From Anas platyrhynchos (lineage: Eukaryota > Chordata > Aves > Anseriformes > Anatidae), in the NCBI RefSeq assembly GCF_047663525.1, contig NC_092616.1, forward strand, positions 5,617,501-5,681,500: a stretch of DNA of 64,000 nucleotides, in the 5' to 3' direction. Both the position numbers and the translations under genes were made by a program. A model generated the notes under the pieces. The model had not been told where the DNA came from and searched no databases. It saw nothing but the letters and a program-made list of their open reading frames with translations. How positions within the stretch are numbered: position 1 is the first letter of the stretch; every line of letters starts with the position of its first letter. Below are positions 1-44,900 of this stretch, in pieces.

Positions 1-3000
1 AGTTTGTACTGGGAAGGGGCTGGGGGGCCCAGTTTGTACTGGGAAGGGTCCCATTTTGTACTGGGAAAGGGCCCAGTTTGTACTGGGAATTAGCTGGGGG
101 TCCCAGTTTGTACTGGGAATGGGCCCAGTTTGTACTGGGATGGGTCTGGGGAGCCCAGTTCATACTGGGAAAGGGCTGGGGGTCCCAGTTTGAGCTGGGG
201 ACAATCCCAGTTTGAGCTGGGTTGGAGCTGGGAGCCCTGGTTTGTACTGGGAAAGTTCCCAGTTTGCAGTGGAATAGGCCCAGTTCATACTGGGAAGGGG
301 CTGTGGGTCCCAGTTTATACTGGGAATGGGCCCAGTTTGTACTGGGATGGGGCCCAGTTTGTAGTGCGAAGGGGCTGGGGGTCCCAGTTTGTCCTGGGAA
401 TGGGCCCAGTTTGTAATGGGAAGGGGCTGGGGATCCCAGTTTGTACTGGGAATGGTCACAGTTTGTACTGGGAAGGGGCTGGGGATCCCAGTTTGTACAG
501 GGAAGGGTCCCAGTTTGTACTGGGAAGGGGCTGGGGGTCCCAGTTTGTACTGGGAAGTGTCCCAATTTGCAGTGGGATGGGCCCAGTTGATACTGGGAAT
601 GGACAGGGGATCCTGGTTTGTACTGGGAAAGGGCATAATTCATACTGGAAAGGGGCTGGGGATCCCAGTTTGTACTGGGAAGATGCTGGGGGGCCCAGTT
701 TGTACTGGGAAGGGTCCCAGTTTGTAGTGGGAAGGGGCTGGGTGTCCCAGTTTGTACTGGGAAGGGTCCCAGTTTGTAGTGGGATGGTGCTGGGGGACCC
801 AGTCTGAACTGGGATGGGCCCAATTCATACTGGGAAAGGCTGAGGATCTCATTTTGTACTGGGAATGGGCCCAGTTTGTACTGGGATGGAGCTGGGGAGC
901 CCAGTTCATACTGGGAAGGGTCTGGGGGTCCCAGTCTGTACTGGAAATGGGCCCAGTTTGTACTGGGGTGGGCCTAATTCATACTGGGAAGGGGCTGGGG
1001 TTCCCAGTTCATAATGGGAAGGGGCTGTGGGTCCCAGTTTGTACTGGGATGGGGCTGGGGGGGGCAGTTTGTACTGGGAATGGGCCCAGTTCATACTGGG
1101 ATGGGGCTTGTGATTCCAGTTTGTACTGGGAAGGCACCCAGTTTGTAGTGGGATGGGTCCAATTCATACTGGGAATGGTCTGAGGATCCCAGTTCATACT
1201 GGGGAGGGGCTGGGGGTCCCAGTTTGTACTAGGACAGTGCCCAGTTTATGCTGGGATGGGGCTGGGTTCCCAGTTTGTACTGGGAGGGGTTCCAGTTTGT
1301 ACTGGGACGGGGCTGTGGGTGCCCAGTTTGTACTGGGAATGGGACCTGTTCATACAGGAAAGGGGCTGGGGAGCCCAGTTCATAATGGGAAGGGGCTGGG
1401 GAGCCCAGTTCACATTGGGACTTGTCCCAGTTTATACTGGAATGAGGCTGGGGATCCTGTTTCATACTGGGATTGGGCCCAGTTCATACTGGGATGGGGC
1501 TGGGGGTCCCAGTTTATACTGGGAATGGGCCCAGTTTGAGTCGGGATGAGGCTGGGGGTCCCAGTTTGTACTGGGAAGGGTCCCAGTTTGTAGTGATAAG
1601 GGGCTGGGGGTCCCAGTTTGTACTGGGAATGGGCCCACTTTGTAATGGGATGGGTCTGGGGGGCCCAGTCTGAACTGGGATGGGCCCAATTCATACTGGG
1701 AAAGGGCTGAGGGTCTCAGTTTGTACTGGGAATGGTCCCAGTTCGTACTGGGAATGGGCTGGGGGTCCCAGTTTGTACTGGGAATGGTCCCAGTTTGTAC
1801 TGGGATGAGGCTGGGGGGCCCAGTCCGAACTGGGATGGGCCCAATTCATAATGGGAAGGGGCTGGGGGTCCCAGTTTGTACTGGGAATGGGCCCAGTTTG
1901 TACTGGGAATGGGCTGGGGGTCCCAGTTTGTACTGGGAATGGGCCCAGTTCATACTGGGATGGGGCTTGTGATTCCGGTTTGTACTGGGAAGGCTCCCAG
2001 TTTGTAGTGGGATGGGCCCAATTCATACTGGTAAGGGTCTGGGGATCCCAGTTGATACTGGGAAGGGGCTGGGGGTCCCAGTTCGTACTGGGGCAGCGCC
2101 CAGTTTGAGCTGGGATGAGGTGGAGGGTTCCAGTTTGTACTGGGACAGTGCCCAGTTTGTATTGGGATTGGGCTGAGGGTCCCAGTTTGTACTGGGAATG
2201 GGTCCAGTTTGTACTGGTAAGGGGCTGGGGGTCCCAGTTCATAATGGGAAGGGGCTGGGGGTCCCGGTTTGTACTGGGAAGGGGCTGGGGAGCCCAGTTT
2301 GTTCTGGGAATGGGATCAGTTCATACTGGGAAGGGGCTGGGGAGCCCAGTTCACATTGGGACTTGTCCCAGTTTATACTGGAATGAGGCTGAGGATCCTG
2401 TTTCATACTGGGATTGGGCCCAGTTCATACTGGGATGGGGCTGGGGGTGCCCAGTTTGTACTGGGAGGGGTTCCAGTTTGTACTGGGAGAGGGCTGCGGG
2501 TGCCCAGTTTATACTGGGAATGTGTCCAGTTTGTACTGGTAAGGGGCTGTGGGTGCCCAGTCTGAACTGGGAATGGGCCCAGTTTGTAGTGGAAATGGGG
2601 TCAGTTCTTACTGGGCTGGGGCTGAGGGTTCCAGTTTGTACTGGGAAGGGGCTGGGGGTCCCAGTTTGTACTGGGATGGGGCTGGGGAGCCCAGTTTGTA
2701 CTGGGAATGGGCCCAGTTTGTACTGGGAATGGGCAGGGGATCCCAGTTTGTACTGGGATGGGGCTCAGTTTGTACTGGGAAGGGGCTGGGGGGCCCAGTT
2801 CATATTGGGAATGGGCCCAGTTCATACTGGGATGGGGCTTCTGATTCCGGTTTGTACTGGGAAGGCTCCCAGTTTGTAGTGGAATGGGGCCAATTCATAC
2901 TGGGAAGGGGCTGAGTGTCCCAGTTTGTACTGGGAAAGAGCTAGGGGTCCCAGTTTGTACTGGAAAGGCTCCCAGTTTGTACTGGGATGGGCCCAATTCA

Positions 3001-4210
3001 TACTGGTAAGGGTCTAGGGATCCCAGTTCATACTGGGAAGGGGCTGGGGGTCCCAGTTCGTACTGGGGCAGCGCCCAGTTTGAGCTGGGATGAGGTGGAG
3101 GGTTCCAGTTTGTACTGGGATGGGGCTGTGGGTGCCCAGTTTGTACTGGGAATGGGCCCAGTTCATACTGGGATAGGGTTGGGGGCCCCAGTTCATATTG
3201 GGAATGGGCCCAGTTTGTACTGGGATGGGTCTGGGGAGCCCAGTTCATACTGGGAAAGGGCTGGGGGTCCCAGTTTGAGCTGGGGACAATCCCAGTTTGA
3301 GCTGGGTTGGAGCTGGGAGCCCTGGTTTGTACTGGGAAAGTTCCCAGTTTGCAGTGGAATGGGCCCAGTTCATACTGGGAAGGGGCTGGGGTTCCCAGTT
3401 CATAATGGGAATGGGCCCAGTTTGTACTGGGATGGGGCCATGGATCCCAGGTCATACTGGGAAAGGGCTGGGGGTCCCAGTTTGTACTGGGGTGGGGCTG
3501 GGGGTCCCAGTTTGTACTGGAATGGGGATGGGGATCTTGTTTCATACTGGGACTGGGCCGAATTCATACTGGGATGGGGCTGGGGGTGCCCAGTTTGTAC
3601 TGGGAAGGGTCCCAGTTTGTAGTGGGAAGGGGCCCGGTGTCCCAGTTTGTACTGGGGAAGGGCATAATTCATACTGGGAAGAGGCTGGGGATCCCAGTTT
3701 GTACTGGGAAGGGGCTGGGTGTCCCAGTTTGTACTGGGAAAGGGCATAATTCATACTGGGAAGTGGCTGGGGATCCCAGTTTGTACTGGGATGGGGCTTG
3801 GGGTCCCAGTTTGTACTGGGATGGGGCTCAGTTTGTACTGGGAAGGGGCTGGGGGGCCCAGTTCATATTGGGAATGGGCCCAGTTCATACTGGGAAGGGT
3901 CTGGGGATCCCAGTTCATACTGGGGAGGGGCTGGGGGTCCCTGTTTGTACTGGGGCAGTGCCCAGTTTGAGCTGGGATGGGGCTGGGGGTTCCAGTTTGT
4001 ACTGGGACAGAGCCCAGTTTATGCTGGGATGGGGCTGGGGGTCCCAGTTTGTACTGGGAATGGGCCCAATTTGTACTGGGAATGGGCAGGGGGTCCCAGT
4101 TTGTACTGGGAATGGGCCCAGTCCCTACTGGGCTGGGGCTGGTCTTCCCAGTTCATACTGGAATGGTCCCAGTTCATACTGGAATGGTCCCAGTTCATAC
4201 TGGGATGCCC
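1..4210. repeat. Minisatellite A, downstream of TLCD3B
   Basis: A tandem array fills this stretch. The core of nearly every unit is CCCAGTTTGTACTGGG or its variant with TTCATACTGGG, an inverted repeat with 6-bp arms (CCCAGT/ACTGGG) and a 4-nt loop. Units come in a short form of about 22 bp and a long form of about 30 bp that adds GGGGCTGG. Blocks are duplicated at larger scale: about 160 bp near 145-305 recurs almost unchanged near 3,225-3,385. Both strands are open over long stretches, but only as repeat peptides, so I call no gene. The array lies beyond the TLCD3B poly(A) signal and is intergenic as far as visible. Confidence 0.95.
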
Positions 4211-4259
4211 CCCCCCCCCCCCGTGTCCCAAGGAGCAGCCGGGTCGGTTCCCAAAGTCC

Positions 4260-5536: not shown

Positions 5537-5803
5537 TCAGGGCGGGTGCCGGGGGGGGGGTCGGAAGAGGCGCCAGGCCCCCCGGCAGATGAGGCCGAAC
5601 CAGTAGAGCTGCGGGGCCAGCAGGGCGGCGGCGGCGGCGTTGTAGGCGGGGGGCAGCGCCCCCGGCACCCGCAGCAGGGGGAGCCCCCGGTGGCGCCCGT
5701 AGGCCCAGTAGAGGTAGGGGAAGAGCAGGACGCGGCAGCCCAGGAACGTCACCAGCATGGCCACCCCGTTCAGCTTGTGCAGGGCCGTGTGCTGCCGCTT
5801 GTA
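5537..5803 (-). CDS. TLCD3B: TLCD3B coding exon 5 (terminal)
   Basis: Residues 179-266 and the stop. It begins YKRQHTALHKLNGVAM, then VLLFPYLYWAYGRHRGLPLL and LLAPQLYWFGLICRGAWRLF, and ends RHPP. The acceptor is CCCCCAG|TACAAG. The first 49 nt of this exon with its upstream intron edge recur twice inside intron 4. Confidence 0.94.
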   Translation of the reverse strand, partial: YKRQHTALHKLNGVAMLVTFLGCRVLLFPYLYWAYGRHRGLPLLRVPGALPPAYNAAAAALLAPQLYWFGLICRGAWRLFRPPPRHPP

Positions 5804-8800
5804 CTGGGGGGGGGACAGGGGGGGTGGGGTGGGGTCCCACCATCATCCCAAATCATCCCGGGGACCCAAGGGGTTGGGGGTATAAAGGGTTGGGGGTGAA
5901 GGTTGAGGGATATGTAGGTTTGGAGGTCTACCAAGACCTCAAGTCAACCCGGGGACCAAAGGGGTTGGGGGTATAAAGGGTTGGGGGTGAAGGCTGAGGG
6001 ATATGTAGGTTTGGGGGTCTACCAAGACCCCAAGTCAACCTGGGGGCTCAGGGGTTGGGGGTGTGAAGGGTTGGGGACATGAGGGGTTGGGAACCCAAAG
6101 GTTGAGGGACACGTGGGGATGGGGGTCTACCAAGACCCCAAGTCAACCCGGGGACCCAAGGGTTGAGGGACACAAGGGTTGGGGGTCTACCAAGACCCCA
6201 AGTCAACCTGGGGGCTCAGGGGTTGGGGGTATGAAGGGTTGGGGGTGAAGGTTGAAGGATATGTAGGGTTGGGGGTCTACCAAGACCCCAAGTCAACCCG
6301 GGGACCCAAGGGTTGGGGGTATAAAGGGTTGGGGTCCAAAAGTTGGGGGGCGTGTGGGGTGGGGTCCCACCATCATCCCAAATCATCCCGGGGACCCAAG
6401 GGGTTGGGGGTGGAAAGGGTTGGGGGGTAAAGGTTGAGGGACACGTGGGTTGGGGGTCTACCAAGACCCCAAGTCATCTTGGGGACCCAATGGTTGAAGG
6501 ACATGAAGGGTTGGGGGTCTACCACCACCCCAAATCATCCTGGGGACCCAAATGTTGAGGGACACGAGGGGTTGGGGGTATGAAGGGGTAGGGGTGAAGG
6601 TTGAGGGACACGTGGGGTTGGGGTTCTACCAAGACCCCAAGTCAGCCTGGGGGCTCAGGGGTTGGGGGTGGAAAGGGGTGGGGGCCAAAAGTTGAGGGAC
6701 ACGTGGGTTGGGGTCCCACCATCATCCCAAATCATCCCGGGGACCCAAGGGGTTGGGGGTGGGAAGGGTTGGGGGTGAAGGTTGAGGGACATGTAGGGTT
6801 GGGGGTCTACCAAGACCCCAACTCAACCCAGGGACTCAAGGGTTGGGGGTATAAAGTGTTGGGGGCCAAAAGTTGAGGGACACGTGGGTTGGGGTCCCAC
6901 CATCATCCCAAATCATCTTGGGGACCCATATGTTGAGGGATATGTGGGGTTGGCAGTCTACCAAGACCCCAAATCATCTTGGGGACCCAAGGGTTGAGGG
7001 ACATGTAGGGTTGGGGGTCTACCAAGACCCTAAGTCAACCTGGGGGCTCAAGGGGTTGGGGGTGGAAAGGGGTGGGGGTGAAGTTGAGGGACACGTGGGT
7101 TGGGGTCCCACCATCATCCCAAATCATCCTGGAGACCCAAGGGAATGGGCCCAGTTCATACTGGGAAGGGTCTGGGGATCCCAGTTCATCCTGGGGAGGG
7201 GCTGGGGGTCCCAGTTTGTACTGGGAAGGGTCCCAGTTTGTACTGGGAATGGGCCCAGTTTGTACTGGGAATGGGCCCAGTTTATACTGGGAAGGGGCAG
7301 GGGATCCCATGCATGGCCACCCCGTTCAGCTTGTGCAGGGCCGTGTGCTGCCGCTTGTACTGGGGGGGGGACAGGGGGGGTGGGGTGGGGTCCCACCGTC
7401 ATCCCAAATCATCCCGGGGACCCAAGGGGTTGGGGGTGGGAAGGGTTGGGGGGTAAAGGTTGAGGGACACGTGGGTTGGGGGTCTACCAAGACCCCAAGT
7501 CATCTTGGGGACCCAATGGTTGAAGGACATGAAGGGTTGGGGGTCTACCACCACCCCAAATGATCCTGGGGACCCAAATGTTGAGGGACACGAGGGGTTG
7601 GGGGTATGAAGGGGTGGGGGTGAAGGTTGAGGGACACATGGGGTGGGGTCCCACCATCATCCCAAATCATCCCGGGGACCCCAGGGAATGGGCCCAGTTC
7701 ATACTGGGAAGGGGCTGGGGATCCCAGTTCATACTGGGGAGGGGCTGGGGGTCCCAGTTTGTACTGGGAAGGGTCCCAGTTTGTACTGGGAATGGGCAGG
7801 GGATCCCATGCATGGCCACCCCGTTCAGCTTGTGCAGGGCCGTGTGCTGCCGCTTGTACTGGGGGGGGAACAGGGGGGGTGTGTGGGGTGGGGGGCTACC
7901 AAGACCCTAAGTCAACCAGGGGACCCAAGGGTTGAGGGATATGTGGGGTGGGGGTCTACCACCACCCCAAATGATCCTGGGGACCCAAGGGGTTGGGGAC
8001 ATGAGGGGTTGGGAACCCAAAGGTTGAGGGACACGTGGGGATGGGGGTCTACCAAGACCCTAAGTCAACCCAGGGACACAAGGGGTTGGGGGTGGAAAGG
8101 GGTGGGGGTGAAGGGTGAGGGATATGTAGGGTTGGGGTCCCACCACCACCCCAAATGATCCTGGGGACCGAAATGTTGAGGGACACAAGGGTTGGGGGTC
8201 TACCAAGACCCTAAGTCAACCTGGGGGCTCAGGGGTTGGGGATGGGAAGGGGTGGGGACATGAGGGGTTGGGAACCCAAAGGTTGAGGGACACGTGGGGA
8301 TGGGGGTCTACCAAGACCCCAAGTCAACCCGGGGACCCAAGGGTTGGAGGACATGAAGGGTTGGGGGCCCACCACCACCCCAAATGATCCTGGGGACCCA
8401 AGGGGTTGGGGACATGAAGGGTTGGGGGTGAAGGTTGAGGGACATGTAGGATTGGGGGTCTACCACCACCCCAAATCATCTTGGGGACCCAAGGGTTGGG
8501 GTATAAAGCCTTGGGGACATGAGGGGTTGGGAACCCAAAGGTTGAGGGACACGTGGGGTTGGGGGTCTACCAAGACCCTAAATGATCCTGGGGACCCAAG
8601 GGTTGAGGGACATGAGGGTTGGGGGTCTACCAAGACCCCAAGTCAACCTGGGGGCTCAGGGGTTGGGGGTGGAATGGGTTGGGGGTGAAGGTTGAGGGAC
8701 ACGTAGGGTTGGGGGTCTACCACCACCCCAAATCATCTTGGGGACCCAAATGTTGAGGGACACGAGGGTGGGGGTCTACCAAGACCCTAAGTCAACCTGG

Positions 8801-11800
8801 GGACCCAAGGGGTTGGGGGTATGAAGGGTTGGGGGTAAAGGTTGAGGGACATGTAGGGTTGGGGGTCTACCAAGACCCCAAGTCATCTTGGGGACCCAAT
8901 GGTTGAAGGACATGAAGGGTTGGGGGTCTACCACCACCCCAAATCATCCTGGGGACCCAAATGTTGAGGGACATGAGGGGTTGGGGGTATGAAGGGGTGG
9001 GGGTGAAGGTTGAGGGACACGTGGGGTTGGGGGTCTACCAAGACCCCAAGTCAGCCTGGGGGCTCAGGGGTTGGGGGTGGAAAGGGGTGGGGGCCAAAAG
9101 TTGAGGGACACGTGGGGTGGGGTCCCACCATCATCCCAAATCATCCCAGGGACTCATGGGGTTGGGGGTATGAAGGGTTGGGGGTCTACCAAGACCCCAA
9201 GTCAACCTGGGGACCCAAGGGTTGGGGGACACGTGGGGTTGGGGGTCTACCATGGTCTTCTGGGGACCCAAAAGTTGAGGGACACAAGGGTTGAGGGACA
9301 TGTAGGGTTGGGGGCCCACCATCACCCCAAATCATCGCAGGGACTCAAGGGGTTGGGGGTATGAAGGGTTGGGGGTGAAGGTTGAGGGACACGTGGGTTG
9401 GGGTCCCACCACCCCCCCAAATCATCCCGGGGACCCCAGGGTTGGGGACGTGAGGGTTTGGGGTCCCCCCGACGTCATTTTGGGGCTCACCAGGATGAGG
9501 ACCTTGCCCAGGCAGACGAAGGGGGTGCTGAGCTCCGCCATCAGCAGGCAGCCCAGGAAGAAGTCACCCTTCCCCTGGCGCCACAGCTGGGGGGGGACAC
9601 GTGATCTAATGTCCCCAAATGTCCCCAAATGTCCCCAAAAGTCCCCAAATGTCCCCAGGTGTCCCCAAGAGTCCCCATGACCACGGAGAACCATGGTGGA
9701 CCTCCATGAGCACGTCCACACCAAGCCACCATCCCTCCACCTCCACATCCCCTCAACACCCCCATGTCCCCTCAACACCCCCATGTCCCCAAGGTGTCCC
9801 CAAAGTGTCCCCAAATGTCCCCAAAAGTCCCCAAATGTCCCCAAGTGTCCCAATGACCACGGAGAACCATGGTGGACCTCCATGAGCACGTCCACACCAA
9901 GCCACCACCCCTCCACCTCCACATCCCCTCAACACCCCCATGTCCCAGAGGTGTCCCCAAATGTCCCCAAATGTCCCCAAGTGTCCCCATGACCACGGAG
10001 AAGCCCCCAAGAGTCCCCATGGCCATGGAGAAGCCAACAAGCCCCATGACAACGTGGTGGACCTCCATGAGTAGCTCCACGCCCAGGTGACATTCTTCCA
10101 CCCCGTGTCCCCAAATGTCCCCAAAGTGTCCCCACATGTCCCCAAATGTCCCCAAAGTGTCCCCAAGTGTCCCCAAGTGTCCCCATGACCACGGAGAGGC
10201 ATGGTGGACCTCCATGAGCACGTCCATACTGAACCACCACCCCTCCACCTCCACATCCCCTCAACACCCCCATGTCCCAGAGGTGTCCCCAAGTGTCCCC
10301 AAATGTCCCCAAAGTGTCCCCAAATGTCCCCAAATGTCCCCAGGTGTCCCAATAACCACGGAGAAGCCCCCAGGAGTCCCCGTGGCCATGGAGAAGCCAA
10401 CAAGCCCCATGACAACGTGGTGGACCTCCATGAGTAGCTCCACGCCCAGGTGACATTCTTCCACCCCGTGTCCCCAAATGTCCCCAAATGTCCCCAAAGT
10501 GTCCCCACATGTCCCCAAGTGTCCCAATGACCACAGAGAACCATGGTGGACCTCCATGAGCAAGTCCACACCAAGCCACCACCCCTCCACCTCCACATCC
10601 CCTCAATACCCCCATGTCCCTGAGGTGTCTGAAGTGTCCCCAAAAGTCCCCAAATGTCCCCAAAGTGTCCCCAAATGTCCCCAAGAGTCCCAATGACCAC
10701 GGAGAACCATGGTGGACCTCCATGAGCACGTCCACACCGAACCACCACCCCTCCACCTCCCCAACCCCTCAACACCCCCGTGTCCCCTCAACACCCCCAT
10801 GTCCCCGAGGTGTCCCCAAATGTCCCCAAAGTGTCCCCAGGTGTCCCCAAATGTCCCCAAGTGTCCCAGTGACCATGTAGAAGCCCACAAAGGTGTGGTG
10901 GACCTCCATGAGCATGTCCATACCAAGCCACCACCCCTCCACCTCCCCATCCCCTCAACACTCCCATGTCCCCAAGTGTCCCCAAAGTGTCCCCAAATGT
11001 CCCCAAAAGTCCCCAAATGCCCCCAAATGTCCCCAAGAGTCCCCATGACCACGTAGAAGTCCACAACAGCATGGTGGACCTCCATGAGCACGTCCACACC
11101 AAGCCCCCACCCCTCCACCTCCCCATCCCCTCAACACCCCCGTGTCCCCTCAACACCCCCACGTCCCCAAATGTCCCCAAACGTCCCCAAAAGTCCCCAA
11201 AGTGTCCCAATGACCACGGAGAACTGTGGTGGACCTCCATGAGCACGTCCACACCAAGCCACCACCCCTCCACCTCCCCATCCCCTCAACACCCCCACGT
11301 CTCCAAATGTCCCCAAATCTCCCCAAATGTCCCCAAGAGTCCCCAAATGTCCCCAAGAGTCCCAATGACCACGGAGAACCATGGTGGACCTCCATGAGCA
11401 CGTCCACACCAAGCCACCACCCCTCCACCTCCACATCCCCGTGTCCTCACGCCACCACCATGTCCCCAAGATGTCCCCAAATGTCCCCAGACGTCCCCAA
11501 ACGTCCCCAAAGCGTCCCCAAGCCCCCCCGTCCCCACTCACGGTGGCCACGGGGAAGCAGACGAGCACCATGGCGGCGTGGTGGAGCACCATCAGCAGGT
11601 CCTTGCGCAGGTAGGAGGCGGCGGCGGCCCGCAGGGAGGGGGGGGGTCCGGCCTCGTGACCTTTGACCCGCGCCCGGTGGCGGTGGCACAGGAACATGGC
11701 GTAGACGTCGTAGACGAAATAGGGGACGGCGAATTGGGGGTACGCCCCCGCCAGCCAGTGCCTGGGGGGGGGACACGGGGGGGACACGGGGGGGACACGG

Positions 11801-14800: not shown

Positions 14801-17800
14801 TTTGGGACACCCCAATTTTGGGCACCCAGACACCCAAAGATTTGGGAACACCCCGATTTTGGGGGACTCAGAGACCCAGGGATTTGGGGACACCCCGATT
14901 TTGGGGGATCCAGGTGCCCAGGTGGCTTGGGGACACCCCAATTTGGGGACCCAGAGATACAGGGATTTGGGGACACCCCAATTTTGGGGACCCAAGGATC
15001 CCAGCTGGCGTGGGGACACCCCAATTTGGGCACCCAGAGACCCAGGGATTTGGGGACACCCCGATTTTGGGGGATCCAAGTGACCCAGTTGACTTTGGGA
15101 CACCCCAATTTGAGCACCCAGACCCTCAGGGATTTGGGGACACCCCAGTTTGGGACACCCAAGTGTCTGGAGATATGGGGACACCCCAAATTAGGGGACT
15201 CAGACACCCAGGGATTTGGGGATACCCTGATTTTGGGGGATCCAGGGGGACAGGTGGCTTGGGGACACCCCAATTTTGGGCACCCAGAGACACAGGGATT
15301 TGGGGACACCCCAATATTGGGGACACAGACACCCAAAGATTTGGGGTCACCCTGATTTGGGGGATCTAGGGGGACAGGGTGGACTTGGGACACCCCAATT
15401 TGGGCACCCAGACACCCAAAGATTTGGGGACACCCCGATTTTGGGGGACTCAGACTCTCAGGGATTTGGGGACACTCCAATTTGGGAACCCTGACACCCA
15501 GAGATTTGGGGACACCCCAGTTTGGGGTACCCAGAGACCCAGGGATTTGGGGACACCCCGATTTTGGGGGGCACGGGTGTCCAGGTGGCTTGGGGACATC
15601 CCAAATTGGGGCACCCTAATGCCCAGTTGACTTTGGGACACCTCAATTTGGGCACCTGGAAACCCAGAGATTTGGGGACACCCCGATTTGGGGGACAGAG
15701 ACACCCAGAGATTTGGGGACACCCTGATTTTGGGGACCCAAGTGTCCCAGTTGCCTTCGGGACCCCCCAATTTGGGCACCAAGACACCCAAAGATTTGGG
15801 GACACCCCGATTTTGGGGGATCCAGGTGCCCAGGTGACTTTGGGACACCCCAATTTGGGCACCCAGAGATTTGGGGACACCCTAATTTGGGGAACCCAGA
15901 GACACAGAGATTTCGGGACACCCCAATTTTGGGGATTCAGAAACCCAGGGATTAGGGGACACCCCGATTTTGGGGGACACGGGTGTCCAGGTGGCTTGGG
16001 GACACTCCAGTTTGGGGACCCAGAGATACAGGGATTTGGGGATATCCCAATTTTGGGGACCCAAGGATCTCAGCTGGCGTGGGGACACCCCAATTTGGGC
16101 ACCCAGAGACCCAGGGATTTGGGGACACCCCGATTTTAGGGACCCAAGTGTCCCAATTGACTTTGGGACACCCCAATTTGGGCACCCAGGTGTCCAGGTG
16201 GCTTTGGGACACCCCAATTTAGGGGATGCAGGTGCCTGGAGATATGGGGACACCCCAATTTGGGGCACCCAGACACCCAAAGATTTGGGGACATCCCAAT
16301 TTTGGGGACTCAGACACCCAGAGATTTGGGGACACCCTGATATTGGAGGATCCAGGGGGACAGGTGGCTTGGGGACACCCAAATTTGGGCACCCAGAGAC
16401 CCAGAGATTTGGGGTCACCCTGATTTGGGGGATCCAACTGTCCCAGTTGACTTTGGGACACCCCAATTTGGGACACCCAAGTGTCTGGAGATATGGGGAC
16501 ACCCCAATTTGGGGCACCCAGACCCTCAGGGATTTGGGGACACCCCAATTTTGGGGGACACGGGTTTCCAGGTGGCTTGGGGACACCCCAATTTGGGCAC
16601 CCAGAGACCCAGGGATTTGGGGACACCCCAATTTTGAGGATCCAGGTGTCCAGGGTGACTTGGGGACACCCCAATTTGGGACACCCAAGTGTCTGGAGAT
16701 ATGGGGACACCCCAATTTTGGGGACCCAAGTGTCCCATTTGACTTTGGGACACCCCAATTTGGGGCACGCAGGTGTCCAGGTGGCTTTGGGACACCCCAA
16801 TTTTGGAGACCCAAGTGTCTGGAGATATGGGGACACCCCAATTTGGGGGACCCAGACCCTCAGGGATTTGGGGACACCCCAATTTTGGGGACTCAGACAC
16901 CCAGGGATTTGGGGATACCCTGATTTTGGGGGATCCAGGGGGACAGGTGGCTTTGGGACACCCCAATTTGGGCACCCAGAGACCCAAAGATTTGGGGACA
17001 CCCCGATTTTGGGGGACTCAGACTCTCAGGGATTTGGGGACACCCCAATTTGGGCACCCAAGTGTCTGGAGATATGGGGACAACCCGATTTGGGGGACCC
17101 TGACACCCAGGGATTTGGGGACACCCCGATTTTGGGGGGCACGGGTGTCCAGGTGGCTTGGGGACATCCCAAATTGGGGCACCCTAATGCCCAGTTGACT
17201 TTGGGACACCTCAATTTGGGCACCCAGACACCCAGGGATTTGGGGACACCCCAATTTGGGGTACCCTGACACCCAGAGATTTGGGGACACCCCGATTCTG
17301 GGGACCCAGGTGTCCCAGTTGCCTTTGGGACCCCCCAATTTGGGGCACCCAGACACCCAAAGATTTGGGGACCCCCCAATTTCCTTCCCCCAAGTATCCC
17401 ATTTACCTTCAGCACCCCCCAAATTTGAGGCACAAAAGCAGTCGGGGACTTTGGGACCCCCCAATTTGGGGTCCCCCCCGCGTGTGTCCCCCCCCGTCTC
17501 CCCCAGGAATTAACCCCGGGGCCGGGTTAATCCGGGATGAGCCCCGGCAGCTGTCACCGTAATCCCCCGCGAGGACACCGCGTCCCCTGTCCCCCCCTCC
17601 CTGTCCCCCTCCCCGGGTCCGGGGGAATTTGGGGGGCGTCTGGGGGGGGTGGGGGCACCCATGGGTGCTGGGGGGGGGGGTGACACTCACTGGTCGTCGA
17701 TGACGTGGTGACAGGAGGAGGAGATGATGTAGCCGGCTGTGGAGGCCATCACCGCCTGCACCGAGGACACCAGCCTGGGGGGGGGACGTTGGGGACACTT

Positions 17801-19472
17801 TGGGGACACTTTGGGGACACTTTGGGGACACTTTTTGGGGACATGGGGACATGGGGGGCAGCCGCCCTGCCACCCCGTCCCCGTGTCCTGGTGCATCTGT
17901 GCCCGCTGTCCTCGGTGTCCCCAAATGTCCCCATTGTCCCCCAGTGTCCCCCAGTATTCCCCATTGTCCCCCGGTGTCCCCAAATGTCCCCAGTGTCCCC
18001 CAGTGTCCCCAGTATTCCCCGGTGTCCCCCGGTGTCCCCCAGTGTCCCCAGTGCTGCATCATCCCCGACCCCGCTGCAGCCCCAGCCCCGTCCCTGTCCC
18101 CTCGCTGTCCTTGTCCCCTTCCCTGTCCCTGTCCCCGTCCCCTCCCTGTCCCCATCCCTGTCCCTGTCCTTGTGCCACATCCACCCCCCTCCTGTCCCCC
18201 TCCTGTCCCTGTCCCATCCCTGTCCTTGTGCCCCATTTGTCCCTGTCCTGTCCCTGTCCCCATCCCCTCCCTGTCCCCCTCCTGTCCCTGTCCTTGTCCC
18301 CATCCCCTCCCCGTCCCCATCCCATCCCCATCCTCTCCCTGTCCCTGTCCCCATCCCCTCCCTATCCCTGTCCCTGTCCTGTCCCTGTCCCCATCCCATC
18401 CCCGTCCTTGTCCCCATCCCCTCCCTGCCCCATCCCCTCCCTGTCCCCCTCCCCATCCCCATCCCATGCCCTCCCTGTCCCCCTCCTGTCCTTGTCCCCA
18501 TCCCCGTCCTGTCCCTGTCCCTGTCCCCGTCCCCATCCCCATCCCCTCCCTGTCCCTGTCCCCCTCCTGTCCTTGTCCCCATCCACATCCTGCCCCCATC
18601 CCCTCCCAGTCCCCGTCCTTGTCCCCATCCCGTCCCCATCCCCTCCCTGTCCCCCTCCTGTCCCTGTCCCTGTCCTTGTCCCCATCCTATCCCTGTCCCC
18701 TCCGTGTCCCTGTCCCCCTCCTGTCCCTGTCCCCATCCCCTCCCTGCCCCCATCCCATCCCCATCCTGTCCCTGTCCTTGTCCCCATCCCGTCCCCATCC
18801 CCTCCGTGTCCCCATCCCCTCCCTGTCCCCCTCCTGTCCCCTTCCCCGTCCTTGTCCCCATCCCATCCCCACCACCTCCCTGTCCCCTCCTGTTCCTGTC
18901 CTTGTCCCCATCCCATCCCTGTCCCCATCCTTATCCCCATCCCGTCCCCGTCCTTGTCCCCATCCCCTCCCCTCCCTGTCCCCCTCCTGTCCTTGTCCCC
19001 ATCCCCATCCCATCCCCATCCCCTCCCAGTCCCCATCCTTGTCCCCAGACCCTCCCTGTCCTGTCCCTGTCCCTCTCCCCATCCCCTCTGTGTCCCCATC
19101 CCCTCCCTGTCCCCCTCCTGTCCCTGTCCTTGTCCCCATCCCCTCCCTGTCCCCATCCTTGTCCCCATCCCATCCCCGTCCTGTCCCTGTCCCCAATCCC
19201 CTCCCTGTCCCCAATCCCCTCCCTGTCCTTGTCCCCCTCCCCATCCCCTCCCTGTCCCCCTCCTGTCCCTGTCCCCATCCCATCCCTGTCCCCCTCCTGT
19301 CCTTGTCCCCCTCCCCCCCCCAATGTCCCCCCTCTCACCTGGCCGCCACGATGACCGCGTCGGGCTCCGGCCAGCGGAGGCCGGGCAGGCGCCGGAGGCC
19401 GCTCTTGGCCAGCAGGAAGAGGCCGGGGAAGAAGAGGAGGCCGCCGGCCAGGGGGGCTCCAGGGGGGGCCAT
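5537..19472 (-). CDS. TLCD3B: TLCD3B (FAM57B), TLC-domain ceramide synthase-like membrane protein, complete
   Basis: Five coding exons on the minus strand join in frame to 266 residues: 19472-19339, 17774-17691, 11761-11542, 9586-9491 and 5803-5537 (stop TGA). All introns are GT-AG. Human TLCD3B is 274 residues. Recognisable blocks are PGLFLLAKSGLRRLP, LVSSVQAVMASTAGYI, FAVPYFVYDVYAMFLCH, LLMVLHHAAMVLVCFP, WRQGKGDFFLGC and LLFPYLYWAYGRH. It is a multipass ER/Golgi TLC-domain protein linked to ceramide metabolism; human mutations cause cone-rod dystrophy (family knowledge). The paired HH in LHHAAMV is a TLC-family hallmark. The ATG at 19472 opens a hydrophobic N-terminal segment like the human one. 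TLCD3A was considered, but the adjacent ALDOA and PPP4C favour TLCD3B. Introns total about 13 kb and are nearly all tandem repeat. Confidence 0.95.
7143..7310. repeat. Minisatellite A segment inside intron 4, copy 1
   Basis: About 168 bp of units with the CCCAGTTTGTACTGGG core sit inside the otherwise unrelated intron 4 array. The segment ends GGGGATCCCAT and passes directly into a copy of coding exon 5. The parent array lies 3 kb away, beyond the gene's 3' end. Confidence 0.9.
7311..7359 (-). pseudogene. TLCD3B: Duplicated 5' edge of TLCD3B exon 5, copy 1
   Basis: These 49 nt are identical to the first 49 nt of coding exon 5 (5755-5803, encoding YKRQHTALHKLNGVAM). The copy continues without a break into the intron side: the acceptor tract and about 70 nt beyond match with one substitution seen. 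If the acceptor were used after exon 4, the frame would leave the exon copy into minisatellite A and hit a TAA after about nine further codons. It is a partial exon duplicate, not a second gene. Confidence 0.93.
7685..7809. repeat. Minisatellite A segment inside intron 4, copy 2
   Basis: A second block of units with the CCCAGT/ACTGGG core, similar to copy 1 but shorter. It again ends GGGGATCCCAT at the junction with exon 5 sequence, so both copies share one ancestral breakpoint. Confidence 0.9.
7810..7858 (-). pseudogene. TLCD3B: Duplicated 5' edge of TLCD3B exon 5, copy 2
   Basis: A second 49-nt copy, identical to exon 5 over the exon part and 499 bp from copy 1. The acceptor-side tract differs slightly (GGGGAACAGG instead of GGGGGACAGG on the plus strand) and diverges sooner. 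Read in the exon frame it stays open through the minisatellite for about 35 codons and then stops. Confidence 0.92.
9491..9586 (-). CDS. TLCD3B: TLCD3B coding exon 4
   Basis: Residues 147-178, LWRQGKGDFFLGCLLMAELS through FVCLGKVLIL. It is 96 nt, phase 0 at both ends. The acceptor is CCCAG|CTGTGG and the donor CTG|GTGAGC. Confidence 0.94.
9600..11530. repeat. Exon-3-like minisatellite in TLCD3B intron 3
   Basis: Units of roughly 180 bp alternate runs of TGTCCCCAAA with a conserved segment, CATGGTGGACCTCCATGAGC then ACGTCCACACCAAGCC. Read on the minus strand the conserved segment encodes LLMEVHH-like peptides resembling the 3' end of coding exon 3 (LLMVLHHAAMVLVCFP). The best-preserved units are near 10,018-10,096 and 10,381-10,460, where minus-strand translation gives LGVELLMEVHHVVMGLVGF. 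About ten units are visible. Confidence 0.9.
11542..11761 (-). CDS. TLCD3B: TLCD3B coding exon 3 (TLC domain, HH motif)
   Basis: Residues 73-146. It begins HWLAGAYPQFAVPYFVYDVY and ends LLMVLHHAAMVLVCFPVAT. The acceptor is CCCCAG|GCAC and the donor ACC|GTGAGT. Copies resembling its 3' end make up the adjacent intron 3 array, and its 5' edge resembles the unit of the intron 2 array. Confidence 0.94.
11880..17400. repeat. Minisatellite filling TLCD3B intron 2
   Basis: About 5.5 kb of units of roughly 45-50 bp are built on GGGGACACCCCAATTTGGG, CACCCAGAGACCCAGGGATT and ATCCAGGTGTCCAGGTGGCT. A recurrent variant reads AAGTGCCTGGAGATATGGGG. Copies are mixed and locally re-duplicated. The interval 17,401-17,690 next to exon 2 is GC-rich but non-tandem, and I see no feature in it. 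Confidence 0.93.
17691..17774 (-). CDS. TLCD3B: TLCD3B coding exon 2
   Basis: Residues 45-73, LVSSVQAVMASTAGYIISSS through HHVIDDQ. The acceptor is CCCCAG|GCTGG and the donor is CCA|GTGAGT. The 84-nt length keeps frame. Confidence 0.93.
17795..19325. repeat. Simple CCCTGTCC/CCCATCCC tract in TLCD3B intron 1
   Basis: A short GGGGACACTTT repeat (17,795-17,835) and CCCAGTGTCCCC units (17,930-18,050) lead into 1.25 kb of CCTGTCCCCATCCCCTCC-type repeat. The plus strand is almost pure pyrimidine, so the TLCD3B transcript strand is a GGGA/GGGGACA purine tract. Long open frames here are repeat artefacts. Confidence 0.93.
19339..19472 (-). CDS. TLCD3B: TLCD3B coding exon 1
   Basis: Encodes residues 1-45 (the last codon is split), from MAPPGAPLAGG through DAVIVAAR. 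It carries the hydrophobic N-terminal segment GGLLFFPGLFLLA. The donor is AG|GTGAGA. Confidence 0.92.
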
Positions 19473-25884: not shown

Positions 25885-36804
<10,920 letters not shown>

Positions 36805-36934
36805 GTGACGTCACCAGGGACACCGATGACGTCACCAGGGACGCCGTGACGTCACCGGGAGCGCCGTGACGTCAGCGGGGAACGCCGCGCCGTGTGACAC
36901 TCCTGTCCCCTCTCCCCCCGTCCCCTCGCCCTTC

Positions 36935-36940
36935 AATAAA
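36935..36940 (+). terminator. ALDOA polyadenylation signal (AATAAA)
   Basis: AATAAA lies in CTTCAATAAAGGAACG, 131 nt after the stop codon, giving a short 3' UTR with cleavage near 36,956. A long array starts directly afterwards. Confidence 0.85.
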
Positions 36941-36959
36941 GGAACGCTGCCTGCAGGGC

Positions 36960-39650
36960 CAACGCCTCGGGGGACACGGGGGGGACATTGGGGGGACAGG
37001 GGGGGATGTGGGGACATGGGGGGGACGTGGGGACATGGGAAGGGGACATGGAGGGACGTGGGGACATGTGGGAGGTGGTGGGGACACGTGGGGACATGGA
37101 GGGAAATGGGGCAGTGAGGGACATGGGGACACGGGGATGTGGGGGGGACACATGGGGACATGGACGTGGGACATTGAGGGACTTGGGGACACGTGGGGAC
37201 ATGGGGACACAGGGAAATGGGACATTGAGGGACACTTGGGGACGTGGTGGGGACATGGACGTGGGACATTGAGGGACTTGGGGACATTTGGGGACATCAC
37301 AGGGACACTTGGGGACATGGTGGGGACATGGACGTGGGACATTGAGGGACACTTGGGGACATTTGTGGACATGGGGACACGGACACTTGAGGACGTGGTG
37401 GGGACATGGACGTGGGACATTGAGGGACTTGGGGACATGGGGACACAGGGAAATGGGACATTGAGGGACACTTGGGGACATTTGGGGACATGGGGACACA
37501 GGGACACTTGGGGACGTGGTGGGGACATGGACGTGGGACATTGAGGGACTTGGGGACGTGGGGACACGGAAATGGGACATTGAGGGACACGGGGGATGTG
37601 GTAGGGACATGGGGACACGGAGGGACGTGGGGACGTGGTAATGGGACACTGAGGGACGTGGGGACATGTGGGGACATGGTGGGGACACAAAGGGACATGG
37701 GGATGTGGGAAGGGGATGTTGAGGGATGTGGGGACATGGAAAGGGGACATGGAGGGACTTGGGGACATGTGGGGACATGGGGACACAGGGAAATGGGACA
37801 TTGAGGGACACTTGGGGACGTGGTGGGGACGTGGATGTGGGACATTGAAGGACTTGGGGACATGGGGACACAGGGACACTTGGGCACGTGGTGGGGACAT
37901 GGACGTGGGACACTGAGGGACGTGGGGACATGGGGACACAGGGAAATGGGACATTGAGGGACACTTGGGGACGTGGTGGGGACATGGACATGGGACATTG
38001 AGGGACTTGGGGACATTTGGGGACATGGGGACACGGACACTTGAGGACGTGGTGGGGACATGGACGTGGGACACTGAGGGACGTGGGGACATGGGGACAC
38101 AGGGAAATGGGACATTGAGGGACACTTGGGGACGTGGTGGGGACGTGGATGTGGGACATTGAGGGACTTGGGGACATTTGGGGACATCACAGGGACACTT
38201 GGGGACGTGGTGGGGACATGGACGTGGGACACTGAGGGACTTGGGGACATTTGGGGACATCACAGGGACACTTGGGGACGTGGTGGGGACATGGACGTGG
38301 GACATTGAGGGACTTGGGGACATGGGGAAAGGGGACATTGAGGGACACTTGGGGACGTGGTGGGGACATGGACGTGGGACATTGAGGGACTTGGGGACAT
38401 CACAGGGACACTTGGGGACGTGGTGGGGACGTGGATGTGGGACATTGAGGGACTTGGGGACATTTGGGGACATGGGGAAAGGGGACATTGAGGGACACTT
38501 GGGGACGTGGTGGGGACGTGGATGTGGGACATTGAAGGACTTGGGGACATTTGGGGACATCACAGGGACACTTGGGGACATGGTGGGGACATGGACATGG
38601 GACATTGAGGGACTTGGGGACATGGGGACACAGGGAAATGGGACATTGAGGGACACTTGGGGATGTGGTGGGGACGTGGATGTGGGACATTGAGGGACTT
38701 GGGGACATTTGGGGACATGGGGACACAGGGACACTTGGGGACGTGGTGGGGACATGGATGTGGGACATTGAGGGACATGGGGACATGGGGACACAGGGAA
38801 ATGGGACATTGAGGGACACGGGGGATGTGGTAGGGACGTGGGGACACGGAGGGATGTGGGGACGTGGTAATGGGACACTGAGGGACATGGGGACACATGG
38901 GGACATGGTGGGGACACAAAGGGACATGGGGATGTGGGAAGGGGACATTGAGGGACGTGGGGACATGGTGGGGACATGGAGGGAAATGAGGCACTGAGGG
39001 ACGTGGCCATGGGACATTGAGGGACTTGGGGACATGGTGGGGACATGGGAACTTTGAGGGACATGGGGACACATGGGGACGTGGTGGGGACACAAAGGGA
39101 CATGGGGACGTTGAGGGACATGGGGACATGGTGGGGACATGGGGACAGAGGGAAATGGGACGTTGAGGGACATGGCGGGGACACGTGGGGACATGGCCAT
39201 GGGACATTGAGGGACGTGGGGGGGGTCTGGGGACACTGGGGACACCCAGGTGACAATGGGGGGGTCTGGGGACAATGAGGGGACACCCAGGGGACATTGG
39301 GGACACTCAGGTGACAATGGGGGGGGGCAGGGGACAATTGGGGGGGGGGTCTGGGGACACTGGGGACACTCAGGTGACAATTGGGGGGAGTCCAGGGGAC
39401 AACTGGGGGGGGTCCCAGAGGGAAATGGGGACACCCAGGTGACACTGGGGGGGTCTGGGGACAATGGGGGGACACCCAGGTGACATTGGGGACACTCAGG
39501 TGACAATGGGGGGGTCCAGGGGACAATTGGGGGGGGGGTCTCAGAGGAAAATGGCGGCACCCGGGGGCCTGCGGGGACACCCAGGTGACAGTGGGGGGGT
39601 CAAGAAGACAATGGGGGGCTCCAGGTGACACTGGGGGGGTCCTGGTGACA
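36960..39650. repeat. Intergenic minisatellite between ALDOA and PPP4C
   Basis: Units combine GGGGACATGGGGACAC, TTGGGGACGTGGTGGGGACA and TGGACGTGGGACATTGAGGG. After 39,210 the theme shifts to GACACCCAGGTGACAATGGG. A 919-codon minus-strand open frame across it is pure repeat. Confidence 0.93.
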
Positions 39651-39729
39651 ATGGGGGGCTCCAGGTGACAATTGGGGACCCCCAGGAGCCCCCAGGCCCT
39701 AATTTGGGCCCCCCCGGAACCAAAATTGC

Positions 39730-41964: not shown

Positions 41965-44900
41965 GTACCCCAATTAGCTAATTAACTCGTTAATTAACCC
42001 CCCTGGGGGGTAATTAGTCTCCCCAGGGGGTAATTAACCCACCCCCGGGGGGGTAATTGATGGTTATTTGCCCCGCAGGGAGATCCTGGTGGAGGAGAGC
42101 AACGTGCAGCGCGTCGACTCGCCCGTCACGGTGAGCTGGGGGGGTAATTAGGGGGCCAAGGGGGTAATTAAGGGGTTGAGGGGGTAATTAGGGGTGTGGG
42201 GGGGTAATTAGGGGTCCCTGGGGGGCGGTTTTGGGGTGTGACCCCCCCCTTTTTTGTTGCCCCCCCCAGGTGTGCGGTGACATCCATGGGCAGTTCTACG
42301 ACCTCAAGGAGCTCTTCAGGGTGAGCTAATTGCCCCCACTAATTGCCCCCCTCACCCCCTAATTGCCCCCCTGTGCCTGTAATTGCCCCCCTCGTCCCCT
42401 AATTGCCCCCCATACCCCTAATTGCCCCCCAACTGCCCCCATGCCCCATAAATACCCCCTATATCCCCTAATTGCCCCACCTGCGTATCCCCTAATTGCC
42501 CCCTCTACCCCCTAATTGCCCCCCATACTCCTAATTGCCCCCTAATTGCCCCCATGCCCCCTAATTGCCCCCCCATACTCCTAATTGCCCCCTAATTGCC
42601 CCCCCTCGTCCCCTAATTGCCCCCCAAGTGCCCCCATGCCCCATAAATGCCCCCTATATCCCCTAATTGCCCCCTATATCCCCTAATTGCCCCACCTGCG
42701 TATCCCCTAATTGCCCCCTCTACCCCCTAATTGCCCCCCCATACTCCTAATTGCCCCCCAAGTGCCCCCATGCCCCCTAATTGCCCCCCCATACTCCTAA
42801 TTGCCCCCCAAGTGCCCCCATGCCCCCTAATTGCCCCCCTATATCCCCTAATTGCCCCCCATCCTCTAATTGCCCCCCAACCTGCCCCAGAAGTGCCCCC
42901 CGCCCCCCAAATGCCCCCACCCCCTCACCCACCCCCCAAAATCTGCCCCTAAATGCCCCCCAACCCCTAACTTCTCCCCCAAAACACCCCCTAAATACCC
43001 CTAATCTGCCCCTCCCGCCCCAAATTTGCCCCCCATGACCCTAATCTGTCTCCCCTAACCCCCTAATCTGCCCCTAATCTGACCCCCTGACCCTAATTTG
43101 CCCCCCTGTGACCCTAATATGCCCTCCTCTAACCCTAATCTGCCCCCCTGTGACCCTAATCTGCCCCCCCCACCCCTAATCTGCCCCCCAACCCTAATAT
43201 GCCCTCCCCTAATCCCCTAATCTGCCCCCCTGTGACCCTAACCTGTTCCCTCTGCCCCTAATCTGCCCCCATGTGACCCTAATCTGCCCCCCCGACCCTA
43301 ATCTGCCTCCCCTAACCCCCTAATCTGCCCCCCATGACCCTAATCTGCCCCCTTCTGCCCCTAACCTGACTCTCCCGACCCTAATCTGCCCCTCTGCGGC
43401 CCTAATCTGCCCCCACCGACCCTAATTTGCCCCTCTGTGACCCTAATCTGCTTCCCCTAACCCCCCAATCTGCCCCCCCCGACCCTAATCTGCCCCCCCC
43501 TGCCCCTAATCTGCCCCCCCAGGTGGGCGGGGACGTCCCCGAGACCAACTACCTGTTCATGGGCGACTTCGTGGACCGGGGCTTCTACAGCGTGGAGACC
43601 TTCCTGCTGCTGCTGGCGCTCAAGGTAGGGCCACGAGGGCACCCATGGGTGCTGCCGGGGGTCCCCGAGCCCCCCACCCACGTGTGCAAACCCCCCCCCA
43701 CCCATAGGTGCGTTACCCCGACCGCATCACCCTAATCCGGGGCAACCACGAGAGCCGTCAGATCACGCAGGTCTACGGCTTCTACGACGAGTGCCTGCGC
43801 AAGTACGGCTCCGTCACCGTCTGGCGCTACTGCACCGAGATCTTCGACTACCTCAGCCTCTCCGCCATCATCGACGGCAAGGTGCGACACGCCAACGACA
43901 CGCTAACGACACGGGGAGGTCGCGGGGCGGCCCCCACGGGGGTCCTGGGTGGAAGGCCGGGGGCCTTCGGGGTCTTTCTTCCAGTTTAGGGGGTGAAATT
44001 TGGTGTTAGGAGGGGGTAAGGATGTGCTGAGGATGCGTTAGGACATGCTAAGGACATGTCAGCACATGTTAAGAACATGCTAAGGACACCTCACAACACG
44101 TTAAGGGTGTGGGGAGGGCCCTCGGGGTCTTTCTTCCAGCTTTGGGGGCGAAAGTGGGTGTTAGGAGGGGGTAAGGATGTGCTAAGGATGTGTTAGGACA
44201 TGCTAAGGACACACCAGTACATGTTAAGAACATGCCAACACGTGCTAAGGACACCTCACAACACATTAAGGGTGTGGGGAGGGCCTTGCTTCCACCTCTT
44301 GGCCCCTTTTAGTCTTTTATTTTGTTATTTTGGCCAAAATTCGGTGTAGGTGTGTGCTAAACGTAAGTCAGGACATGGGAATTACATGCTAGGACACGCT
44401 AAGGACAAGCTAAGTGCACACAGAGGGGTGGGGGGAGGCACGTGAGGGTCCTGTGTGTCCAGCTCAGTCCCTTTCCAGTGTTTTTGGAATTAAAACTTGG
44501 TGTTAGGGTTTAGTAATGGTGAGCTGGGACATGCTAAGAACATGCTAAGGTCATGCTAACACATGCTAAGCACATGTGTGGGGTGTGGGGAGGCCCGTGT
44601 GTGGGTCCTGCATCCGCAGCTCGCTCCTTCGTGGTGTTTTCCTCGTTATTGGGAGTAGAAACGGGACATTAGGAGGTGTTGATGGTGCGTTAGGACATGC
44701 TAAGAACATGCTAGCACACGCTAAGGACATGCTAAGCACATGGAAGGGTGGTAGGGGCTCCGTGTGAAGGCCCTGGGTCATCAGCTTTGCCCCTTGTGGT
44801 GTCCCTGTTATCACTGGTGGCAAGATGAACACGCTGGGACACGCTAAGGACATGGCAGAACATGTCAAAGGCATAGAATGACATAGAACATGCTAAGAAC

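Follow-up and report, generated by a model that had tools for sequence, protein, structure and literature searches.

The 64,000-nt stretch of Anas platyrhynchos DNA analysed here (the window, whose numbering is used throughout) has a GC content of 60%, a tandem-repeat coverage of 81% (TRF) and 418 G4 motifs, compared with an average of 9 across 20 mononucleotide shuffles. An exon-by-exon reading places a TLCD3B-like gene on the - strand, with exons at about 19.4, 17.7, 11.7, 9.5 and 5.7 kb, and the joined protein of 267 amino acids matches the TLC domain PF03798 (E 4.3e-30), in agreement with the identity and the strand assigned to this gene in a preliminary description of the same DNA. On the + strand are found an ALDOA-like gene at 25.9-35 kb, whose partial protein of 314 amino acids is a class-I aldolase (E 6.7e-159) with many aldolase A chains among its best solved relatives, a PPP4C-like gene at 42-46.9 kb, whose partial protein contains a Metallophos domain (E 7.5e-29), and an HSA-domain exon near 62.4 kb. 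The domains were computed, whereas the names TLCD3B and PPP4C are our assumption from sequence resemblance and synteny. With its tandem repeats, its G4 motifs and the order TLCD3B-like (-), ALDOA-like (+), PPP4C-like (+) and HSA exon (+), the window resembles GC-rich avian genes long thought to be missing. ALDOA is a dot-chromosome gene in chicken according to the available text of Hron et al. (PMC12954441) and, from its gene content (ALDOA) and its repeat content, the window looks like part of an avian dot chromosome.

The region studied comprises the last two coding exons of the TLCD3B-like gene, the intron between them, which consists mostly of a tandem array referred to here as array B, and a minisatellite array, array A, located on the other side of exon 5 (Table 1). 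The acceptor edge of exon 5 (5755-5803, 49 nt) is present three times on the + strand of the window, starting at 5755, 7311 and 7810, and a BLAST search of the window with exon 5 on both strands rendered the same three places and no other, including no inverted copy of the exon. The two additional places lie within intron 4 and are, as previously claimed, identical to the exon edge throughout 7311-7359 and 7810-7858. Each of them matches exon 5 with 97.6 bits, compared with 32.2 bits for the best match in 200 dinucleotide shuffles of intron 4, and similarity by chance was therefore rejected. Both copies reach the exon border at 5803 and include the AG acceptor. The exact match to the source extends for 87 nt in copy 1 (5755-5841) and for 59 nt in copy 2 (5755-5813), and over 5755-5881 copy 1 is identical to the source at 126 of 127 positions, the sole change being A to G at 5842. 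The single change described earlier for the intron side of copy 1 is thus correct, whereas the length of that side, given as about 70 nt, is 78 nt. In copy 2 a different intron-array flank follows the first 20 acceptor-side nucleotides. The presence of unspliced intron sequence at the acceptor in both copies led us to reject an RNA-mediated (retro) insertion. The whole feature had been delimited as 7143-7858, of which the start holds; since A block 2 extends to 7809 and copy 2 has an acceptor side that continues past 7858, its extent becomes approximately 7143-7880. In a collection of viral contigs, not of birds, 144 short-pattern matches to an exon 5 peptide were found, of which 0 were confirmed as relatives.

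Table 1. Features of the region between array A and coding exon 4 of the TLCD3B-like gene (window coordinates).
Feature	Position	Strand	Remarks
Minisatellite array A	1-4207	+	Units of ~22/30/52 nt, with the core CCCAGTTTGTACTGGG; lies past the TLCD3B 3' end
Best source for the initial 70 nt of A blocks 1 and 2	3872-3941	+	69/70 to each block; next best 64/70
Poly(A) signal ATTAAA	4260-4265	-	Only AWTAAA on the - strand between 4201 and 9490
TLCD3B coding exon 5	5537-5803	-	88 codons + stop; copied edge is 5755-5803
TLCD3B intron 4	5804-9490	-	Mostly tandem array B; 84% TRF-covered; G4-rich
A block 1, in intron 4	7143-7310	+	
Exon 5 edge, copy 1	7311-7359	-	49/49 nt; then, on the + strand, 78 nt of acceptor side to 7437 with one change
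Stretch following copy 1 (acceptor side and array B)	7360-7682	+	
A block 2, in intron 4	~7686-7809	+	Resembles block 1, minus 44 nt
Exon 5 edge, copy 2	7810-7858	-	49/49 nt; 19/20 of the first acceptor-side nt agree
TLCD3B coding exon 4	9491-9586	-	Its donor is the would-be partner of the real and the decoy acceptors

Each copy of the exon edge is joined to a block of minisatellite A. The parent array was said to lie past the 3' end of the gene, and this holds, because the poly(A) signal ATTAAA is found at 4265-4260 on the - strand and the array ends at 4207. When up to 3 mismatches were allowed on both strands, the A core was confined to the first 4.3 kb of the window and to 7150-7790; this restricted distribution, together with the sharing of 18-mers across exon 5 described below, upholds the view that A is foreign to intron 4. 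A single stretch of array A is the best source for the beginning of both blocks, although its lead shrinks when 100 nt from 3872 onward are compared (91 matching positions vs 87 for the next best with block 1, and 91 vs 89 with block 2), so that a clear source can be named for no more than the initial 70-80 nt. The figure of only 91 of 100 for block 1, with 87 for the next best, implies that a different or older A allele may have served as the template. The A core sequence was not found in the literature searched, and the above-mentioned collection of viral contigs, not of birds, contained no exact match to a 22-nt A motif.

The join between A and the exon is common to both copies and reads GGATCCCAT followed directly by GCATGG. 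The word GATCCCATGCATGG is present at 7303 and 7802 only, and the copies share the 16 nt immediately to the left of the breakpoint, where the source shares none with either; the same mid-exon breakpoint had been described for both, and these observations support it. In array A, GGATCCCA is followed by G in 11 out of 11 cases and by T in 0 out of 11, and the exon flank at the source breakpoint is CACCAGCATGG, so that the join fits a CCAG microhomology plus one extra T. At the join between B and A, GGG is common to both sides, and any microhomology at the joins is thus short, 3-4 nt. The sharing of one junction pair by both copies points to one origin followed by duplication. Nevertheless, the copies are not one stretch pasted twice, since A block 2 differs from block 1 by a 44-nt indel, there are 5 substitutions in 154 nt over the left join (7101-7254 vs 7644-7797), and the right flanks of copies 1 and 2 are unlike each other. 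The left B flanks of the two A blocks are identical at 55 of 60 positions to each other and at 58 and 57 of 60 to the B unit at 6691; because they are closer to that unit than to one another, the start of the duplicated unit cannot be fixed, and recombination with other B units seems likely from these comparisons. The identities, the junctions and the order of the segments, namely array A, partial exon 5 and intron 4 as already proposed, are direct observations. Longer repeats are usual within intron 4, where stretches of 240-325 nt are 94-95% identical in pairs (6354-6652 vs 7380-7677, 95.3%; 6357-6680 vs 8766-9089, 94.2%; 7409-7648 vs 8792-9031, 95.4%), a sign of larger-scale duplication within array B.

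A comparison of the distinct 18-mers of 28 intervals located between exons or unique islands, in all 378 pairs and with low-complexity words dropped, rendered 136 words common to 1-4230 and intron 4, that is, across exon 5, and 19 for the next pair. Only 5 of the 378 pairs shared at least 6 words (136, 19, 18, 7 and 7), and of the weaker four, one corresponds to a repeat of PPP4C and three consist mainly of inverted words, of the TGTCCCC type in two of them and of a G-rich motif in the other. A BLAST comparison of four pairs of neighbouring arrays (the 3'UTR array against A, intron 4 and intron 3 in turn, and intron 4 against intron 3) found nothing shared at an E value of 1e-4. The A blocks are therefore the clearest transfer across an exon in the window. 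The PPP4C repeat is a ACATGCTAAG-type family (43882-46744) located in introns on either side of the exon at 45740-45911; it accounts for the 19 shared 18-mers, its best match is 32 nt at 97%, and it may represent another, weaker case of repeats on both sides of an exon. Repeats of the TGTCCCCAAA type, mainly inverted, are found at 9587-11541, 17775-19329 and 34958-39701, in TLCD3B introns and beyond ALDOA, and their recurrence probably reflects the independent growth of a simple motif.

The copying of exon edges into introns has been described in chicken as exon stuttering by Hron et al. 2026 (PMC12954441). In the available text of that work, the phenomenon affects 115 genes and 236 introns (190 on dot chromosomes); a lateral part of an exon together with its splice site, 20-187 nt of exon (median 36), is copied 1-44 times as direct repeats into the adjacent intron, extensive variation of intron length among individuals is a feature, and the duplicated splice sites open the possibility of alternatively spliced transcripts. 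The expansions are called strictly local and isolated between exons, which is a generalisation and not a criterion of the screening, and on the mechanism the authors can only speculate. Their screen looked for direct copies of exon parts in the adjacent intron, with blastn-short matches of at least 20 nt and at least 42.1 bits. By the same procedure, intron 4 yields two matches to the neighbouring exon 5, each of 49 nt, 100% identity and 97.6 bits, both touching the exon border at 5803 with the AG acceptor included, in an intron covered to 84% by TRF repeats. As far as that text describes it, the TLCD3B case is like stuttering in the lateral position of the copied part and its splice site, in the direct orientation within the adjacent intron, in the size of the exon part and the number of copies, in an intron full of imperfect tandem repeats and in the ALDOA neighbourhood. 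Since exon-edge copying has thus been published for avian dot chromosomes, the exon copies alone are unsurprising. What differs is that the copies in TLCD3B carry a minisatellite from beyond the 3' end of the gene, across the terminal exon: strict locality does not extend to a pair of intervals with 136 18-mers in common across exon 5, and the A block is, when set against the text of PMC12954441 alone, the unusual part. When 20 exon intervals, several with approximate borders, were compared with the whole window and matches overlapping the listed exons were dropped before counting, 12 matches of at least 20 nt remained outside those exons. Only two of these attain 42.1 bits, and TLCD3B exon 5 is the source of both; in 5 mononucleotide shuffles of the window the maximum was 26.3 bits. 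No other stuttered exon was found among the 20 intervals. The main text of PMC12954441, whose supplement lists its 115 genes, contains none of the names TLCD3B, FAM57B and PPP4C.

We consider it probable, with appreciable room for doubt, that the locus, as represented by this one haplotype, is a case of exon stuttering on an apparent avian dot chromosome with an extra step, in which template switching was followed by duplication; template switching and tandem duplication, already put forward in the preliminary description, are plausible. Synthesis along the + strand in intron 4, during replication or repair, would have left array B near 7142 and copied about 170 nt of array A from approximately 3872 onward. 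A switch to position 5755, within exon 5, would have come next, so that the exon edge and the acceptor were copied into intron 4, and synthesis would have resumed in array B. The resulting chimeric unit (A block, exon edge, acceptor and B) would have been duplicated, and its copies trimmed and reshuffled via recombination between B units. Both this polarity and the origin of the feature in a single event are what we infer from the arrangement. Array B contains 9.3-11.6 G4 motifs per kb across its three parts; in the 4.2 kb of array A there is a single one. The units of A fold into hairpins, and for one 61-nt stretch the fold is only modestly better than that of shuffled sequences (z of -1.9, with 8 of 200 shuffles folding equally well). 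The G4-rich B and the hairpin-forming A are plausible reasons for stalled synthesis and may have driven the process.

Other explanations would account for part of these data. An intron with 84% of tandem repeat (TRF) is error-prone for assemblers, and reads from exon 5 and array A might have been mis-joined within it. However, an assembly error is unlikely because the copies differ from each other, by the 44-nt indel, by the 5 substitutions in 154 nt and by their right flanks, and in addition they have in common one junction with an extra T that follows none of the 11 GGATCCCA words of array A; for chicken, the available text of PMC12954441 reports that raw nanopore reads confirmed the general repeat structure of PHF8 introns. 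We regard such an artefact as improbable, and as slightly less so an unequal recombination within array B between a normal chromosome and a deletion allele that had lost everything from array A to 5755. This last possibility, whose product would be an otherwise normal gene containing A, part of the exon and intron sequence, is itself unlikely in our judgement: the deletion would indeed give the order A, partial exon 5, intron 4, and the B units offer ample homology, but a loss-of-function allele would be needed beforehand, as well as a second junction (B to A), and the A tract is only about 170 nt and not long.

It can also be the case that the copies have been kept because their putative acceptors tune TLCD3B via truncated or unproductive mRNAs. 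On the - strand both decoy acceptors, at 7359 and 7858, are ahead of the real one at 5803 in transcript order, as had been pointed out, and they rank first and second among the 97 AGs of intron 4, with scores of 12.07 (copy 2) and 11.59 (copy 1) compared with 11.59 for the real site, in an approximate matrix that discriminates poorly. This same matrix assigns only 5.4 to the real acceptor of exon 4 and 7.36 to that of exon 2, values that lie under or within the range of ordinary intronic AGs such as those at 7286 (9.22) and 7128 (8.72), so that the acceptor score is weak evidence. Were the decoys used and read through, the predicted proteins would measure 242 residues for copy 2 and 204 for copy 1, compared with 267 for the native protein, whose final 72 residues would give way to others. 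The best donor-like word downstream, ATGGTGGGA, located 204 nt after the decoy acceptor of copy 2 and 248 nt after that of copy 1, has a score of 6.14, higher than the real donor of exon 3 (5.77) and lower than that of exon 2 (6.94), and a cassette exon is thus conceivable; but this word is found at seven places of intron 4, including 5841, just before the real exon. Moreover, most of what lay upstream of the pyrimidine tract is missing from copy 2, whose acceptor side is reduced to about 20 nt, and youth alone can explain that the 49 nt are identical. We therefore hold a retained function to be very unlikely. A recursive splice site was rejected, since the copies read CAG and then TAC, not GT. 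Branch points conform to a TGAC-like consensus, and the sole change in the first 127 nt of copy 1 (7398, + strand A to G), about 39 nt before the decoy acceptor, converts GATGATGG into GATGACGG on the transcript strand, which is closer to TGAC. The decoy acceptors could be used at a low level; the copies may be taken as passive, and most likely they are a by-product without function, presumably neutral.

The pattern from B to A to exon 5 and back to B is that of iterative switches with templated insertion, from which we infer the mechanism at TLCD3B. In human rearrangements, according to the available text of PMC5120786, templated inserts of 6 to 13,357 bp accompany repeated switches of template, a mark of FoSTeS/MMBIR, and the TLCD3B case resembles that description in the short sequences shared at the joins, in an insertion of about 170 nt templated from a few kb away, in the occurrence of more than one switch and in the gain of copies. 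It differs in that it is of kilobase scale within one gene, involves minisatellite arrays and is evolutionary rather than de novo. Polymerase theta, in the portion of PMC5730883 at hand, generates tandem duplications with microhomology and occasional templated inserts; its end joining would likewise explain microhomology and a templated insert at a duplication, but the insert in TLCD3B is long and its source is about 3.3 kb away. We think that template switching fits better than polymerase-theta end joining.

A wider reading is that stuttering on avian dot chromosomes is not a strictly local slippage, and that template switching over several kb can ferry an extragenic minisatellite across a coding exon and seed it in an intron, joined to an exon edge whose acceptor looks intact; we give this reading an even chance. 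The junctions and the insert from outside, traced to source positions, record the path of a copying event, which argues for template switching over simple slippage. With a pair of almost identical acceptors preceding the real one, this locus also offers a clean case for the question of whether copies of this kind affect splicing in a conserved gene. If template switching at the kilobase scale is true, it would unite as a single process the spread of minisatellites, the copying of exon edges and the provision of new splice sites.
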